DNA from: Calothrix sp. PCC 7103 | Lineage (GTDB): Bacteria > Cyanobacteriota > Cyanobacteriia > Cyanobacteriales > Nostocaceae | Direction: 5' to 3' | DNA length: 64,000 bases | Assembly: GCF_000331305.1 (NCBI RefSeq) | Contig: NZ_KB217478.1 | Span: 4,142,575 to 4,206,574, forward strand | Part shown: one piece after another, positions 35,572 through 41,215 of the stretch | How positions within the stretch are numbered: position 1 is the stretch's first letter | How the letters are laid out: every line of letters starts with the position of its first letter | Position numbers and translations under genes: made by a program | The notes under the pieces: generated by a model | Told to the model about the DNA's origin: nothing | Seen by the model: only the letters and a program-made list of their open reading frames with translations | The model's database searches: none

Positions 35572-36579
35572 TTAACTATACTCAACTTCTCCATAAGTTT
35601 TTAGCAACGTCGAAAACTTGCGACGCATCAAAATGCCGGGTTTATCGGTCATCATATGCTGTTCTTTGGTGATATCAAGCGGTACGTTGTAGTCGGTTGT
35701 TTCCAAAATGACTTTATCTTCAAGCGTAACTGCACGGTCAAAAGCTACGATATTTTCTGCTTTTGTTTCGGCTTCGGTATCGTTACGTAAACAAAATTGT
35801 ACTATTTGAGAAGTCGAATCGTCGATTGGTGTGGCTGTATTGACAACTATATGAACTAAGCCATTAGGATAACCTATCCGCAGTTGGGCAGTAAATGGCA
35901 TGTACCAAGTCATATGCATTGTTCGCACTACCTGGTTTTGCTCTATTTTCAAATTTTCTTGCTGTAGCTTGGGGTTTGTTACTCCCAGCACCGTCCAAAA
36001 ATCAATTCCCCACTCGTGTTCTTGCAATTCCATTTTATCGGGAATCGGATGTTCTTCGCTGCCAAAAGTTGTTGTGTGTACAAACGTTGGGTGTGCGGTG
36101 TCAAACTCATTTTCCATCACTCGCAACCCCGCACATTTCCAAGGTTCGTAAAATTCTTGAATTAAACGATATTTAGAGTCTTTAGCTTCTGGTATATCTG
36201 GAATATCGTACAATGGTTCCTCTAAACATACCCAAATATAACCATACCTCTCTGCACAGTTATAGGCGCCTATTTTATAACTAGGTGATATCATTCCATC
36301 TTGGAGTTGGGGTACATGTGTACAAGTTCCTGCACCATCAAACCTCCAACCATGATATGGACATTCTATATTACCGTTTGTAACCTTTCCTTTCGATAGC
36401 TGCGCGGAACGATGACAACAACGGTCTTGCGCTGCTGCTGGGTTCCCTTCGGCATCTAGCCAAAGGACTATTTTTTGACCCAATAGCGTAAATGGTTTAG
36501 GATGACTATCTAATAAATGACTTTTGGGAATAACAGGATACCAAAAACGTTTTAATACAGGTTGCTTTGTTACTAACAT
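35572..36579 (-). CDS. Rieske-type non-haem iron oxygenase
   Basis: A 335-residue oxygenase alpha subunit. The Rieske [2Fe-2S] ligands are CCHRSAQ (C-x-H) and CPYHGW (C-x2-H), 17 residues apart. The mononuclear iron site is NEFDTAHPTFVH, with two histidines; the C-terminal substrate domain follows. No C-terminal membrane helix of the PaO/CAO type is seen, so it is probably soluble. Such enzymes hydroxylate or demethylate aromatic or cyclic substrates using a separate reductase. It is transcribed divergently from the NifE-like gene 360 bp away, and shares an inverted-repeat candidate operator with it. Confidence 0.9.
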   Translation of the reverse strand: MLVTKQPVLKRFWYPVIPKSHLLDSHPKPFTLLGQKIVLWLDAEGNPAAAQDRCCHRSAQLSKGKVTNGNIECPYHGWRFDGAGTCTHVPQLQDGMISPSYKIGAYNCAERYGYIWVCLEEPLYDIPDIPEAKDSKYRLIQEFYEPWKCAGLRVMENEFDTAHPTFVHTTTFGSEEHPIPDKMELQEHEWGIDFWTVLGVTNPKLQQENLKIEQNQVVRTMHMTWYMPFTAQLRIGYPNGLVHIVVNTATPIDDSTSQIVQFCLRNDTEAETKAENIVAFDRAVTLEDKVILETTDYNVPLDITKEQHMMTDKPGILMRRKFSTLLKTYGEVEYS

Positions 36580-36939
36580 AAAAATATTTTGCTTATTAAT
36601 CTACTTTGACGTAGGTGGCATAGCCCTACTTACAGGTTATATCTAAGATTTTCCTAAGTTTTTATACTTATTTTGTATTCAAAAATACAAATGAATCAAG
36701 TTGTAAGTAATTTTTAACGCTTGGAGTGTTAATAAAATCTAGCAAAGTATTGAAAATAATTACCTCAGTATGATTACTGGTGTAGTTTAGGGGTTAGCAA
36801 GGTGGGCAGAGATGCCTGCTCCACAAGAGAAAATTAATTTAGATACAAAATGAAAATTTTGTAAATAACATAAATAACACAATATTTCTAGTTTTTATTA
36901 TATTATGAATTGCGATAAATCTACCCTATCACGGCTAAA
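36580..36939. other. Divergent promoter region, Rieske / NifE-like
   Basis: 360 bp between divergent genes. It holds an inverted repeat at 36672-36691 and, at ~36800-36830, a copy of the GTGGGCAGAGATGCCTGC / CTCCACAAGAG repeat. No canonical NtcA box (GTA-N8-TAC) was found. Confidence 0.5.
36672..36691. promoter_or_regulatory. Inverted repeat, possible operator
   Basis: TTTGTATT-CAAA-AATACAAA: two perfect 8-bp arms with a 4-bp centre. It lies 93 bp upstream of the Rieske start and ~250 bp upstream of the NifE-like start. The size and symmetry fit a dimeric regulator, for example the RHH-TOBE or CRP-family proteins of this cluster. This is inference. Confidence 0.45.
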
Positions 36940-38223
36940 ATGGAAGCAAGTCACGATAAAATCGAAGGCTTTTCTGATGGGCAAAAATCACTAGCACAGC
37001 AAAATCAACAAGATTGTGCTTTTGATGGCGCAATGATGGCTTTAGTTCCTATTACAGACGCTGCTCATTTAGTTCATGGTGCGAGCGGTTGCGTTGGTTC
37101 TTTTTTGTCTCGTAGTAATGATGCTGCAATTCTTAATAAAATTCGCTTTACTACCGATATGGAAGAAAGTGATATTATTTTTGGTGGCGCCAAAAAGTTA
37201 TACAAAGCAATTTTAGAAGTTCATCGTCGCTATAATCCTAAAGCAATATTTGTATATTCTACCTGCGTTTCTGCTATGATTGGTGATGATATTAACGGCG
37301 CCACACACGACGCAGCAGAAAAATTAGGTATTCCTGTTATTCCTGTAGATTCACCAGGGTTTATTGGTAACAAAAATTCAGGTATTCGTCTTGCTGGTGA
37401 TATTTTACTCGAACACGTTATCGGTACTGTAGAACCAGAATTTACTACCAACTATGATATTAACTTGATTGGCGATAGCTTTAATGAGGGCGCCGTTGAA
37501 ATAGAATCTTTATTGGAAAAAATAGGAATTCGAGTATTAGCAAAAATTGCAGGCAATAGCCAATACAAACAAATAGCTCAAGCACACCGTGCGAAACTGA
37601 ATGTGGTTATATCCTCTAAACAACTGCTAAAATTAGCAAAGCAAATGTCCAAGCGCTATGGAATTGATTATATTGAAGAATCTCTATACAGCTTAGAAGA
37701 AATCAACAACTGTTTAATAAATATTGCAATCAAACTAGACACTGACTTAAAAGAACGAGCTGAGAAGTTAATCGCAGCACAAACTAATAATCTAAATTAT
37801 CAATTAGATTTATATCGTTCCTATATCAAAAATAAGAAAATTCTCATTGATGTTACAAGTGGAAACTTATCAATTACCTCTACAGCTAAAATTCTAAATT
37901 TAGATATTATTCTTATTGCCGAGCATCTCAATGAAAAAGATAAATCAAAAATTACACAATTATTCAATCAAGAGGTAATTGTTTTAAATAAAGGGAATGA
38001 GAAAAATCAAGTCTTACAAATAATTCAAGATAGGGCAGTAGATATGTTAGTGGCACCACACAATTATCAATCTATCGCGATTCAAACACAAATTTCTTTT
38101 CTCAATAATCATCATCAATCTACTTATGCAGGATATACAGGAATAATCAAAGCTGCACAAGAATTATATATAGCTTTTAAAAGCAATGTTTGGAAGCAGT
38201 TAAATACATCGGCGCCTTGGTAG
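36940..38223 (+). CDS. NifE-like nitrogenase-cofactor scaffold subunit lacking the L-cluster cysteine
   Basis: A 427-residue NifE homologue. NifE-NifN normally builds the FeMo-cofactor on its surface. The family pattern is strong: QQDCAFDGAMMALVPITDAA, HLVHGASGCVGS, RFTTDMEESDIIFGGAKKLY, AIFVYSTCVSAMIGDDI. The three cysteines expected to hold the shared [4Fe-4S] cluster are Cys26, Cys51 and Cys109. At the position of the FeMo-co-precursor ligand (Cys250 in Azotobacter NifE, Cys275 in NifD), the sequence reads NVVISSKQLLKLA, with Ser225 instead of Cys. The N-terminus is ~10 residues short. The stop codon begins a GAAACCGGG repeat; the NifN-like gene starts 44 bp later. No nifHDK or nifB is nearby. 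An altered function is inferred. Confidence 0.85.
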   Translation: MEASHDKIEGFSDGQKSLAQQNQQDCAFDGAMMALVPITDAAHLVHGASGCVGSFLSRSNDAAILNKIRFTTDMEESDIIFGGAKKLYKAILEVHRRYNPKAIFVYSTCVSAMIGDDINGATHDAAEKLGIPVIPVDSPGFIGNKNSGIRLAGDILLEHVIGTVEPEFTTNYDINLIGDSFNEGAVEIESLLEKIGIRVLAKIAGNSQYKQIAQAHRAKLNVVISSKQLLKLAKQMSKRYGIDYIEESLYSLEEINNCLINIAIKLDTDLKERAEKLIAAQTNNLNYQLDLYRSYIKNKKILIDVTSGNLSITSTAKILNLDIILIAEHLNEKDKSKITQLFNQEVIVLNKGNEKNQVLQIIQDRAVDMLVAPHNYQSIAIQTQISFLNNHHQSTYAGYTGIIKAAQELYIAFKSNVWKQLNTSAPW

Positions 38224-38237
38224 AAACCGGGTTTATT
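38221..38237. repeat. GAAACCGGGTTT repeat at the NifE-like stop codon
   Basis: TAGAAACCGGGTTTATT begins with the stop codon itself and fills the gap between the two nif-like genes. Confidence 0.7.
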
Positions 38238-38267
38238 TTTATTTTCTTTTTTTCTAAACTAATCATC

Positions 38268-39590
38268 ATGGCAATTGTAAGCATCACAAATACATCGGTA
38301 GCAGTAAACCCCCTTAAACATAGTCAAGCAGTAGGTGCCACTTTAGCATTTATGGGGTTTGCTGGAGTAATGCCTGTACTACATGGTTCACCTGGCTGTA
38401 GCACATTCGCACAAATACCTTTAACTCAACATTTGGGTGAAATAATTCCTCTTTCTACAACAGGAATGACTGAAGTTGTTACCGTTTTGGGTTGTGAGGA
38501 AAATATTAAACAAGCGATTATCTCGTTAGTACGCCAGCATCACCCGGAAATTCTTGGTCTTTGTACAACTGGACTCACCGAAACCAGAGGGGATGATATG
38601 GCGCGTTTTTTAAAAGAAATTCGCCAAATTCCAGAATTAAATAATTTACCGATGGTTTTGGTATCTACGCCAGATTTTAAAGGTAGCTTACAAGATGGCT
38701 ATGCGGCAGCAGTGGAGAGCATTGTTAAGGAAATTCCTACAGTCAGCAAACCAGATACACAGTCAAAACAAATAACAATTTTAGCTAGTTCTGCTTTTAC
38801 ACCTGGTGATATTCAACAAATTAAGGAAATGTGTCTTGATTTTGAACTAGACCCAATTGTTCTACCAGACTTATCTGGCTTACTTGATATAGATTTTAAT
38901 AATGATGATAATAATTATGATAATAATTTTAATAGTACATTAAATCGTGCAGTCACTCGTAGTGGCACAACTTTAGAACGATTACAGTTAGTTGGCAATT
39001 CTAGCTTCACTTTGGCACTGGGTGAAAGTATGCGCTCTAGTGCGAGGATATTACAACAAAGATTCAAAGTTCCTTACGATGTATTCACAGAATTTGTTGG
39101 ACTTGATGCTACAGATAAACTTTTGTACGCGCTCTTCAAAATTAGTGGTAATGCTGTACCAGAAAAATACCGACTTTTTAGGCGCCAGTTACAGCAAGTA
39201 ATGCTGTTTACGCATCTTAAGCTTAGTTGTAAGAAAGTTTCTGTGGCGTTAGAACCTGATTTACTTTGGTTGACCATTGATTTTCTGCAATCAATGGGAG
39301 TATCTATTCATGCAGCAGTAACAACTGGACGCTCTCCACTGCTTGAAAAAATACCAATTAAAAGCGTTACTATTGGTGACTTAGAAGATTTTGAGCAACT
39401 AGCAGCAGGTTCAGATTTATTAATCGCTAACTCCAACGCTTCGGCAATTGCAAAACGTTTAAGTATTCCTCTATATCGTCAAGGAATTCCTATTTTTGAC
39501 CGTTTGGGCAATATTTTCTCAACCAAACTTGGTTATCGAGGTGCCATGCAGTATTTATTTGACATAGCGAATGAAATAAATGCACTCTGA
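38268..39590 (+). CDS. NifN-like nitrogenase-cofactor scaffold subunit
   Basis: A 441-residue NifN homologue, the partner of the NifE-like protein. Recognisable parts are VNPLKHSQAVGATLAFMGF, PVLHGSPGCSTFAQIPLTQH with Cys44, exactly the NifN position that provides the fourth ligand of the shared [4Fe-4S] cluster, and LSTTGMTEVVTVLGCEENIK, LCTTGLTETRGDDMARF, VLVSTPDFKGSLQDGYAAA. I start at ATG 38268; the 26 codons before it lie in the NifE-like 3' end. An Asn/Asp-rich low-complexity insert (DIDFNNDDNNYDNNFNSTLN, ~206-225) is unusual. Its stop is 14 bp from the convergent CRP-family gene. Confidence 0.85.
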   Translation: MAIVSITNTSVAVNPLKHSQAVGATLAFMGFAGVMPVLHGSPGCSTFAQIPLTQHLGEIIPLSTTGMTEVVTVLGCEENIKQAIISLVRQHHPEILGLCTTGLTETRGDDMARFLKEIRQIPELNNLPMVLVSTPDFKGSLQDGYAAAVESIVKEIPTVSKPDTQSKQITILASSAFTPGDIQQIKEMCLDFELDPIVLPDLSGLLDIDFNNDDNNYDNNFNSTLNRAVTRSGTTLERLQLVGNSSFTLALGESMRSSARILQQRFKVPYDVFTEFVGLDATDKLLYALFKISGNAVPEKYRLFRRQLQQVMLFTHLKLSCKKVSVALEPDLLWLTIDFLQSMGVSIHAAVTTGRSPLLEKIPIKSVTIGDLEDFEQLAAGSDLLIANSNASAIAKRLSIPLYRQGIPIFDRLGNIFSTKLGYRGAMQYLFDIANEINAL

Positions 39591-39604
39591 TGGTTATGTT
39601 TTAT

Positions 39605-40207
39605 TTACGCACTTATGATTAACCAGCGCTTATGGCGCCTTAATTTACCTTCGTCCTCTAAATCTCGCAATACACGTGTAACAGTAACACGAGTCGTATT
39701 TAGCACGTCGGCGATTTCTTGATGAGTAATGTGCAAATCAATTAATTTACCATCTTGTAAATCACGGCTAAATTTATCGCTTAACCAGATTAAAAATTGC
39801 CATATGCGGGTAGAGACACGTTTACTGTTAACGATACTTACTAATTCTTCAGTTCGTTGAATACGCGATAAAAGTTGGTCTAGGTTTTCGTGTAATTTTT
39901 CAGATGGAATACTAGCTAACTCTACACCACTAATGCATTCAAGATGATAAGGTTGAACACGCGATAGCGAATAACCAACAATATCACCAACTCCCCAGTA
40001 ACCTAAAGTCGTATAAACACCGTTTTCATCCCAGGTCAACGCACGCACGCTTCCCCTTTGAATTTTCCATAGTACTTGCTCCTGCTCAGGTATTAATTGG
40101 CGCCGTTCAAAAGTGCGGTGCTGAATATGAGTAGATGCGGATACGGAGTTATTCATATTTGTTATGGCTACAGCCTTATTCATAATAAATACCAGATTGT
40201 TAGTCAT
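39605..40207 (-). CDS. CRP/FNR-family transcription regulator
   Basis: A 200-residue regulator with an N-terminal cyclic-nucleotide-type beta-barrel (VLWKIQRGSVRALTWDENGV, GDIVGYSLSRVQPYHLECIS) and a C-terminal winged HTH (HQEIADVLNTTRVTVTRVLR). No Cys motif for Fe-S sensing is visible, and I cannot tell which effector it binds. Possible starts are 40207, 40183 and 40156; the last gives the most family-like length. It reads toward the NifN-like gene and away from the RHH-TOBE gene. Related to NtcA in its DNA-binding helix, but not NtcA. It probably regulates the surrounding cluster. Confidence 0.85.
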   Translation of the reverse strand: MTNNLVFIMNKAVAITNMNNSVSASTHIQHRTFERRQLIPEQEQVLWKIQRGSVRALTWDENGVYTTLGYWGVGDIVGYSLSRVQPYHLECISGVELASIPSEKLHENLDQLLSRIQRTEELVSIVNSKRVSTRIWQFLIWLSDKFSRDLQDGKLIDLHITHQEIADVLNTTRVTVTRVLRDLEDEGKLRRHKRWLIISA

Positions 40208-40480
40208 TAAAGTAGCTTATAGCTAAGTATTATTAGCTACTTTACATTTTAATACTGACTACAGGACAATCCAATACAAATATGATTTTTATACATTGTG
40301 TTTATATAAATTTCATATTCATAAAAATAAATAAATTATCAATGTGCGTTTTATCACTGTTTTTATAGAAAATTTTAACCAAACCTTCATACAATCTTTA
40401 AATACTGCCTTAATTTCCGTCATGGCGCCACTGACACAAGTAAGATAGTCTTGTAATGTATTACCAACTTTTAACCAATT

Positions 40481-40497
40481 TACCAATTAATTTGGTA
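40481..40497. promoter_or_regulatory. Palindromic operator candidate upstream of RHH-TOBE
   Basis: TACCAA-TTAAT-TTGGTA, a perfect 6-bp inverted repeat with a 5-bp centre, 5 bp before the ATG at 40503; a half site TACCAA lies at 40463-40467 and again at ~40474-40479 (AACCAA). The position suggests autoregulation by the encoded RHH protein, with binding blocking translation initiation or transcription. Inference. Confidence 0.45.
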
Positions 40498-40502
40498 GAA
40501 CT

Positions 40503-40964
40503 ATGCCAAGAAAAGAACAAGGATGGATAACATTTCAAACATCTGAAGACGAGCGGAAAATTCTAGAGGAGTTCTGCCACTCGTCTCAGCGTACTAAAAC
40601 AGAGGTGCTGCGTGAGTTACTACGCAATTTAACTGATAAGTCTTCGCAATCAGCTATACCAAACGAGTACGAATCAGAGACACGTATACCAACTCCAGAA
40701 AAGCCAATAGATACAAATGTATCTTTCATTGAAGCTAGCATTCAAAAGAAACCGCTCAAAGTTAGCTCACGCAACCTCCTTAAAGGTGTCGTGACTGAGG
40801 TTAAAAATGGGCCAGTTAACAGTGAGATAACGCTAGAAGTTGTGCATAAAGTCAAACTCACCTCTGTAATTACCAGAGTCTCAGCAGATGAATTACAACT
40901 TGATATAGGTAAAGAAGCTTACGCTGTGATTAAATCTACAGATATAGTGATTGCTAGCGAGTAA
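40503..40964 (+). CDS. RHH (CopG-like) - TOBE fusion, probable molybdate-responsive regulator
   Basis: A 153-residue protein joining an N-terminal ribbon-helix-helix DNA-binding domain (WITFQTSEDERKILEEFCHS, RTKTEVLRELLRNL, ~8-44) to a C-terminal TOBE/Mop molbindin domain (KVSSRNLLKGVVTEVKNGPV, NSEITLEVVHKVKLTSVITR, EAYAVIKSTDIVIAS, ~85-153) through an Asn/Pro-rich linker. Known molybdate regulators of the ModE type use a winged HTH with two TOBE domains, so this RHH version is a different architecture. It lies next to the nif-like pair and a second Mop protein, and has a perfect palindrome just upstream. I infer oxyanion-dependent repression. Confidence 0.8.
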   Translation: MPRKEQGWITFQTSEDERKILEEFCHSSQRTKTEVLRELLRNLTDKSSQSAIPNEYESETRIPTPEKPIDTNVSFIEASIQKKPLKVSSRNLLKGVVTEVKNGPVNSEITLEVVHKVKLTSVITRVSADELQLDIGKEAYAVIKSTDIVIASE

Positions 40965-40966
40965 AG

Positions 40967-40992
40967 TTAGAAACCCGGTTTCCGGGTTTCTT
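40967..40992. repeat. GAAACCCGGTTTC repeat between convergent TOBE genes
   Basis: TTAGAAACCCGGTTTCCGGG then TTTCTTTG, one full and one half palindrome between the stop codons of the RHH-TOBE and Mop genes. It is suited to terminate both. Confidence 0.75.
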
Positions 40993-40996
40993 TGAA

Positions 40997-41215
40997 CTAA
41001 TCAACGGCTACCATGACATCAGTAGATTTTACAACAGCATAAGCATCGGCGCCTTCAGTTAAATTCAGTGATTGTACGGCATCCTTAGTAATAATTGCTG
41101 TTACTTCCAGACCTTCTGAGATTTCTAAAATTACCTCTGAGTTCACAGAGCCTGGTATAATTTTTTTAACTTTTGCTTTTAAAGTATTGCGTGCGCTAAT
41201 TCTCATTTTTGACAA
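40997..41215 (-). CDS. Mop/TOBE molbindin
   Basis: A 72-residue single TOBE domain (ISARNTLKAKVKKIIPGSVN, SEVILEISEGLEVTAIITKD, GADAYAVVKSTDVMVAV). Free molbindins form rings that bind molybdate or tungstate in the cytoplasm, serving as buffers or sensors. It is a relative of the C-terminal domain of the neighbouring RHH-TOBE fusion and is convergent with it, 32 bp apart. The pair may have arisen by duplication of one TOBE unit. Together they point to molybdenum or a related oxyanion as the signal for this locus. Confidence 0.9.
   Translation of the reverse strand: MSKMRISARNTLKAKVKKIIPGSVNSEVILEISEGLEVTAIITKDAVQSLNLTEGADAYAVVKSTDVMVAVD

Follow-up and report, generated by a model that had tools for sequence, protein, structure and literature searches.

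Why should a NifE-like and a NifN-like gene stand side by side in the cyanobacterium Calothrix sp. PCC 7103, apart from any other nif gene and among genes that resemble a molybdate-responsive locus? The stretch concerned, hereafter the window, comprises 64,000 nucleotides of assembly GCF_000331305.1 (contig NZ_KB217478.1, positions 4,142,575 to 4,206,574). A sequence-only reading had pointed to the pair, here called E and N, and proposed either a nitrogenase-like scaffold that builds or reduces something else, or an alternative-nitrogenase helper locus under molybdenum or vanadium control. Our annotation agrees with the genes and coordinates that it gave (Table 1) and with its claim that the pair has no nif neighbors: besides E and N, the window yields no further component-1 (PF00148) or NifH-family (PF00142) match. 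The two frames are co-directional, with a gap of 44 bases. E matches the Oxidored_nitro family and misses the cut-off of the nifE model (391.1 bits against 505.1), and N passes that of the nifN model (481.1 bits against 326.8). Chance open reading frames were ruled out by full-length conservation and by the ratio of nonsynonymous to synonymous substitution rates (dN/dS). We see an even chance that the pair forms a nitrogenase-like complex of NifEN descent, cofactor-less and linked to molybdenum, that is, a two-component reductase built like dark-operative protochlorophyllide oxidoreductase (DPOR).

The answer begins with the residues that hold metal clusters. In NifE, according to the available parts of PMC13031127 and PMC13128457, C37, C62, and C124 hold the O-cluster, with S41 and C44 of NifN beside it; the precursor NifB-co (the L-cluster) is bound by C250 inside and by C25, with C15, at the surface; and the change C250A abolishes FeMo-co formation. 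Equivalent residues were assigned by alignment to NifE of Azotobacter vinelandii. In the window, C26, C51, and C109 of E correspond to the O-cluster ligands C37, C62, and C124, and N keeps C44; S225 replaces C250, and no cysteine lies ahead of C26, so that the C15/C25 ligands are gone. The pattern recurs among 122 distinct E-type sequences, a set taken from chosen loci and limited to open frames of at least 380 amino acids, from which truncated relics are excluded by construction: 66 lack C250, and 56, in canonical or "E-only" context, keep it. These two groups are defined by C250, and the match of the first to the clade described below rests on NifH/nifK context, genus, and trees (26 clade E rows). 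Among the 66, C250 is replaced by serine in 59, by phenylalanine or aspartate in two each, and by glycine, proline, or alanine in one each. All 66 retain C62 and C124, C37 is present in 65 (the remaining sequence is cut by a contig end), and 57 have no cysteine in the N-terminal C15/C25 segment. Among the 56 C250-keeping sequences, C37 is missing from four and C62 from one; some of these, at least, are cut at the end of the locus.

Conservation is uneven along the protein. Positions invariant among canonical sequences are kept by the clade at a mean of 72% in residues 1–220 of E, which carry the O-cluster cysteines, 54% in residues 221–427, which carry S225, and 80% in N (16 rows each, with the window's N counted twice). 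An AlphaFold model of E has a mean predicted local distance difference test score of 70.6 and a predicted template modeling (TM) score of 0.60, with low values at residues 1–24 and 49–81; Foldseek placed seven NifEN chains on top (TM score about 0.5, root-mean-square deviation about 10 Å). The predicted fold thus supports the NifEN family and is uninformative on the cavity. By alignment, then, E has lost the equivalent of the internal NifB-co ligand C250 and, in most of its relatives, also those of C15 and C25 at the surface, and has kept those of the permanent [4Fe-4S] O-cluster. This fits the earlier suggestion of a nitrogenase-like scaffold doing something else, and the complex is predicted not to be a cofactor maturase of a known kind. 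A duplicate of canonical NifEN with its normal function, placed under molybdenum control, would agree with N passing the NifN cut-off and with plasmid copies annotated as nifE and nifN; with C250 absent from all 66 distinct clade E sequences, that explanation is largely refuted unless another residue substitutes for C250, and we regard it as very improbable.

Identity to the canonical counterparts in the host is about 50% for E (against NifE) and about 58% for N (against NifN). The best matches of both are NifE and NifN, with cyanobacterial vnfE/vnfN outside the top three of the eight seed proteins. Membership of DPOR or the reductive cyclases was considered and rejected (scores of 53 against a cut-off of 490, and of 52 against a cut-off of 268). 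In a phylogeny inferred with IQ-TREE, the 26 clade E proteins included group on a single branch (99/98), separate from 16 canonical NifE and four "E-only" paralogs, and the Calothrix group (100/100) is nested within it. The N tree sets 12 clade proteins on one side of a branch and 17 canonical ones on the other (97/100), and in a quick tree the clade's NifH received a Shimodaira–Hasegawa-like approximate likelihood ratio (SH-aLRT) support of 97; vnfE/vnfN and the NifHEN-like sequences of Firmicutes were left out of these trees. On this sequence evidence, the pair is firmly placed as the Calothrix-group branch of a clade of NifEN paralogs. The "E-only" genes (L118:7816-9183, L050:14598-16040, L053:8883-10274, L117:9768-11222) are a second NifE-like group without an adjoining N; they form one clade (99/100), keep C250 in four of four, and in two cases lie beside a gene that looks NifX-like by eye.

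A profile of 16 clade E proteins was searched against 217 genomes of the host's family in the Genome Taxonomy Database (GTDB). It found a clade member in 62 of them, including all seven of the host genus, a count that misses genomes having short fragments only. The clade limit of 694.8 bits was set afterwards, in a narrow gap between the lowest NifH-linked match (L202, 694.8) and the next, nifK-linked one (L203, 692.8); the five matches inspected under it (L203–L207) all retain C250. An order-wide draw of 388 genomes (E-value 1e-204) gave 16 matches, all within the host family, one of which (G315, 681.7 bits) falls under the clade limit. In the open PubMed Central literature, including the available parts of PMC5452144, we found no VnfR–NifH–E–N operon, no cyanobacterial NifE without C250, and no description of the clade; the vnf cluster, as far as the available text of PMC6645180 goes, is conserved and contains many uncharacterized genes.

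The host, a heterocystous cyanobacterium close to Dulcicalothrix/Calothrix with a genome of 11.58 Mb in 12 contigs, does possess a canonical system. A genome-wide search located canonical nifE and nifN, with fragments of nifK, nifD, and nifH, in the interval C7:2.18-2.47 Mb, 1.7–2 Mb distant from the pair; it also showed DPOR-type genes at C7:2.59 Mb and C7:4.35 Mb and a single intact extra nifH at C7:3.765 Mb. The host's nifH, nifD, and nifK are each split into pieces (L064–L068, L133–L135, L144, L145), nifH into three over about 216 kb, and the paralog at 3.765 Mb is the sole intact nitrogenase-type NifH detected in the assembly. Although canonical nif genes exist elsewhere, the refuting case named in the earlier reading does not apply: the pair groups apart from canonical NifEN, and the genus keeps the same neighbors. 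Among named organisms, Dulcicalothrix desertica PCC 7102 and strains of Calothrix are the closest relatives, with E identities of 89–92% in four and of 71% and 63% in two more. The order Rieske, E, N, CRP, RHH-TOBE, Mop is kept in five of six related named contigs (L039–L043), and L044 lacks the CRP and RHH-TOBE genes. Genomes G436, G353, G380, G439, G437, and G438 were equated with those of L039–L044 by matching coordinates.

Outside the host genus the gene order is different, and it includes a candidate partner. There the usual order is a VnfR-type regulator, a NifH paralog, E, and N. The clade NifH is about 320 amino acids long, 86%–94% identical to the host copy, and has a conserved C-terminal tail. 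It stands directly upstream of 58 of the 66 distinct clade E, N lies downstream in 60, and nifK lies upstream in none; of the eight E without this NifH, seven are from the host genus and one is at a contig end. The regulator was found at the expected distance in 40 of the 66, many fetched stretches being short. Among the 56 C250-keeping E, the clade NifH is upstream in none and nifK in 42. In the host, the regulator, which has a helix-turn-helix and a PBP-like domain (PF12727), and the NifH are intact at a separate locus (C7:3.763-3.766 Mb, L141), and the clade NifH is kept in six of the seven genus genomes at 94%–100% identity. A second locus in strain NIES-4105 (L051) contains NifH, a truncated E of 109 amino acids, modBC, modA, a shortened RHH gene, and Mop; its layout suggests how the pair and NifH became separated.

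This NifH points back to the vanadium system. In Anabaena variabilis, the accessible portion of PMC4284476 describes VnfR1 and VnfR2 as molybdenum-dependent repressors, a promoter shared by vnfR2 and vnfH, and a vnfH lying more than 20 kb beyond vnfN, behind vnfR2. In genome G541, vnfDGKEN is followed by a vup-like transporter and a VnfR gene, and about 21 kb beyond vnfN comes VnfR with the clade NifH; a second vnfH-type gene, encoding 279 amino acids, lies in between, about 12 kb beyond vnfN. Since the clade NifH of G541 fits the map position of the A. variabilis gene and the 279-amino-acid gene does not, the clade NifH is probably the gene named vnfH there. VnfG scored above cut-off in 36 of the 217 family genomes, 27 of the 62 with the clade against nine of the 155 without it (Fisher p 2e-10, phylogeny not corrected), and 35 of the 62 have no VnfG above cut-off; the clade is associated with vnf and not dependent on it.

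That association, together with the map position of the partner NifH, is what a scaffold for FeV-co or an alternative nitrogenase, left with a VnfEN function after loss of VnfDGK, would predict. The vnfE/vnfN genes beside vnfDGK belong to a different family, however, the cofactor ligands are lost, and the clade genomes without VnfG form a majority; the ligand pattern and best matches largely refute this explanation, which we find hardly tenable. VnfEN identity of the pair itself was rejected on its best matches, the absence of vnfG (no match to VnfG/AnfG, PF03139, anywhere in the host genome), and the ligand pattern. Of the vanadium part of the earlier proposal, a historical link to vnf survives, in the VnfG counts and in a partner NifH that appears to resemble A. 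variabilis vnfH, and membership in the vanadium system does not. Separately, a VnfD-like protein that has a CAAD domain (PF14159) at its C terminus occurs in Calothrix brevissima NIES-22 (L050:18062-20098) and at L115:14980-17016; its locus has no VnfG match and adjoins a vnfH-type gene, a ribbon-helix-helix (RHH)-TOBE gene, and an extra NifE, and the same genome also has vnfDGKEN.

The molybdenum part fared better, through Mop, the link to a VnfR-type regulator, and a palindrome beside RHH-TOBE that recurs at modA. On plasmids of Nostoc sp. C052 (pC052_A) and C057 (p057_H), the operon, publicly annotated as nifH, nifE, and nifN, is accompanied by modA, modB, a porin, Mop-type proteins, and a HesA/MoeB gene. 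Across 40 distinct operon loci (626 kb; 43 loci before duplicates were merged), the palindrome TACCAA-N5-TTGGTA has 43 occurrences, spread over 29 of the loci; none stands upstream of a NifH, E, or N gene there, and 16 distinct canonical nif loci (L205 having been entered twice) have no copy. Of 20 genes for an HSDR_N-domain protein, 17 have it in the 450 bp upstream, as do nine of 22 genes for a small unknown protein. In thirteen vnf or "E-only" loci there are three sites, all of them where an RHH-TOBE gene begins. The host genome has nine sites, against none for a reversed control pattern; two were tied by eye to molybdenum genes (RHH-TOBE and modA, the latter at the modA 5' end and overlapping its first possible start codon), and the other seven look unrelated. 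Because the palindrome stands 5' of RHH-TOBE and at the 5' end of modA, the RHH-TOBE protein encoded next to the pair may respond to molybdate and repress both its own gene and modABC. Its relatives include the shortened protein adjoining modA in L051 and others near vnf clusters; its RHH half was assigned by the look of the sequence and is not recognized by Pfam even at an E-value of 0.1. Two further proteins recur near NifH–E–N and vnf loci: a protein with the HSDR_N domain, which is known from the N terminus of type I restriction R subunits (L048:12956-13873 and homologs), and a protein of about 120 amino acids with no Pfam match (L048:6028-6387 and homologs).

The molybdenum setting also serves the main rival, a helper of FeMo-co synthesis when molybdenum is low: NifH–E–N would load molybdenum and homocitrate on NifH, or form mixed complexes with canonical NifN or NifE, and then hand over to canonical NifEN, holding no NifB-co itself. 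Molybdenum insertion has NifH and NifEN as its components (PMC13031127, in the part available), and on the two plasmids the clade operon lies with modA, modB, a porin, and Mop-type genes. A helper would also agree with N being more conserved than E, with the loci that have E without N, and with the canonical nif component-1 genes present in all 12 named clade-bearing genomes searched. Since C250, reportedly needed for FeMo-co formation (PMC13128457, as far as its available text goes), is gone, we consider this rival unlikely, if still the strongest of the alternatives.

Selection bears on whether the pair has a function at all. Over five relatives, dN/dS is 0.25–0.41 for E and 0.07–0.16 for N, against 0.055–0.06 for canonical nifE and 0.04 for canonical nifN; the pair is under purifying selection, and E is constrained far less than NifE. 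The high ratio of E could mark the relaxed or decaying remains of an old nifEN copy linked to vnfH, as could the truncated relics (the short E of L051 and a 102-amino-acid N in L240) and the patchy spread over the family. Against decay, all 65 clade matches of the family search are free of internal stops, the cluster cysteines persist in 65 or 66 of the 66 clade E, N is clearly constrained, and the pair's E is present throughout the host genus. We judge a remnant distinctly improbable, more so than the helper.

For the pair as a cofactor-less reductase, the most likely function would be the ATP-dependent reduction of a substrate other than N2, in the manner of DPOR. Scarcity of molybdenum would lift a repression of the VnfR or RHH-TOBE type; E and N would assemble into a complex bearing the O-cluster; the NifH paralog, fuelled by ATP, would hand electrons to that cluster; and from there they would reach a substrate that sits inside the emptied cofactor cavity or close to it. 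The full proposal is a NifH–NifEN-type reductase that shed its cofactor in a recent, independent re-invention of a DPOR-like design, is induced by molybdenum scarcity in heterocystous cyanobacteria, and acts on a substrate that perhaps aids the gain or sparing of molybdenum. We offer it tentatively, at somewhat below an even chance.

Several observations weigh against such a reductase. NifH does not adjoin E and N in the host genus, and in G438, one of its seven genomes, the pair is present but the sole NifH match groups with ordinary NifH. Nine of the 66 clade E carry one or two cysteines in the N-terminal segment. The regulatory signal is uneven: the palindrome lies in the 450 bp upstream of only 17 of 40 vnfR genes, is missing from 11 of the 40 operon loci, and is rare at mop (2/17), modA (2/9), and porin (2/10) genes, and the host has no exact copy upstream of E or at the NifH locus. 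The dN/dS of E, four to seven times that of canonical nifE, also fits relaxation. The pair is dispensable, since G541 kept the clade NifH and has there no clade E and only a 102-amino-acid remnant of N. Four loci of one genus (L186, L188, L192, L195) have the regulator, NifH, and E without an adjoining N. Relaxed constraint in E, the loss in G541, and the loci without N count against an essential function. Finally, the design itself is not new, because NifH-linked proteins that resemble NifEN and lack FeMoco ligands, some of them next to ABC transporters, have already been noted in Firmicutes and Archaea (PMC3464626, in the portion available).

Table 1. Features of the E/N locus, in window coordinates.
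Feature	Position	Strand	Remark
Rieske (VanA-type) oxygenase	35572-36579	-	Conserved divergent neighbor in genus; may be unrelated to the pair
E protein, NifE paralog without NifB-co ligands	36940-38223	+	427 aa
E O-cluster cysteines	C26 37015-37017, C51 37090-37092, C109 37264-37266		
E S225	37612-37614		Stands where A. vinelandii NifE has C250
N protein, NifN paralog	38268-39590	+	From ATG, 440 aa; keeps S41 and C44 (O-cluster side)
CRP/FNR-family regulator	39605-40207	-	Conserved neighbor in genus
Palindrome TACCAA-N5-TTGGTA, exact	40481-40497		5 bases before RHH-TOBE start codon; putative operator
RHH-TOBE protein	40503-40964	+	Putative molybdate-sensing repressor
Mop, free TOBE-domain protein	40997-41206	-	69 aa

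No link between the pair and the Rieske and CRP genes, conserved in the genus as they are, turned up. An operator of the palindromic type upstream of E was sought and rejected: when the intergenic region is aligned across the genus, a 3' block proves conserved and no exact palindrome appears. At 36844-36863, about 77–96 bases 5' of E, lies an inverted repeat, TACAAAAT-N4-ATTTTGTA, which is partly conserved in the genus and could be a regulator site.

Dozens of genomes carry a natural NifH–NifE–NifN operon in which the cofactor ligands are gone and the site of the electron-entry cluster is kept. If the proposed reductase is real, a nitrogenase maturase has been turning into another enzyme within one bacterial family. 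In the available parts of two papers, NifEN is discussed as a model of an ancestral nitrogenase (PMC11168457), and a NifH–NifEN pair has been built in Escherichia coli as a nitrogenase analog (PMC12047441). Predictions of nitrogen fixation from counts of nifH, nifE, and nifN could mislead, because plasmid copies of the clade carry those names.

Set beside known systems, the clade shares with the vnfR2–vnfH region of A. variabilis (PMC4284476) its layout of a regulator followed by a NifH-type gene, with a transporter between vnfN and vnfH, a map that G541 repeats; it differs in that the available part of that paper does not mention E–N beside vnfH, and G541 itself lacks clade E and holds N as a relic. 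Cyanobacterial VnfEN shares a region with the clade operon in some genomes and is a separate family by best matches, with no VnfG in the host. NifEN (structures 3PDI, 9IAN, 9ONK, 9I0G) is closest by sequence and by the predicted fold of E, and like it the pair keeps the O-cluster ligands and is NifH-linked in other loci; the pair differs in the loss of C250 and mostly of C15/C25, in the erosion of E 221–427, and in a clade operon led by a VnfR-type regulator and NifH instead of nifK. The NifHEN-like proteins of Firmicutes and Archaea, DPOR, and Ni-sirohydrochlorin reductive cyclase share the design of an Fe protein with two component-1-like subunits, [4Fe-4S] cysteines, and no cofactor ligands. 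The clade differs from them in standing beside cyanobacterial NifEN, in trees drawn without the Firmicutes sequences, and because of that position its loss of cofactor ligands looks independent and recent. What appears to be novel is that the design arose again, from NifEN, inside one cyanobacterial family, in copies annotated as nitrogen-fixation genes.

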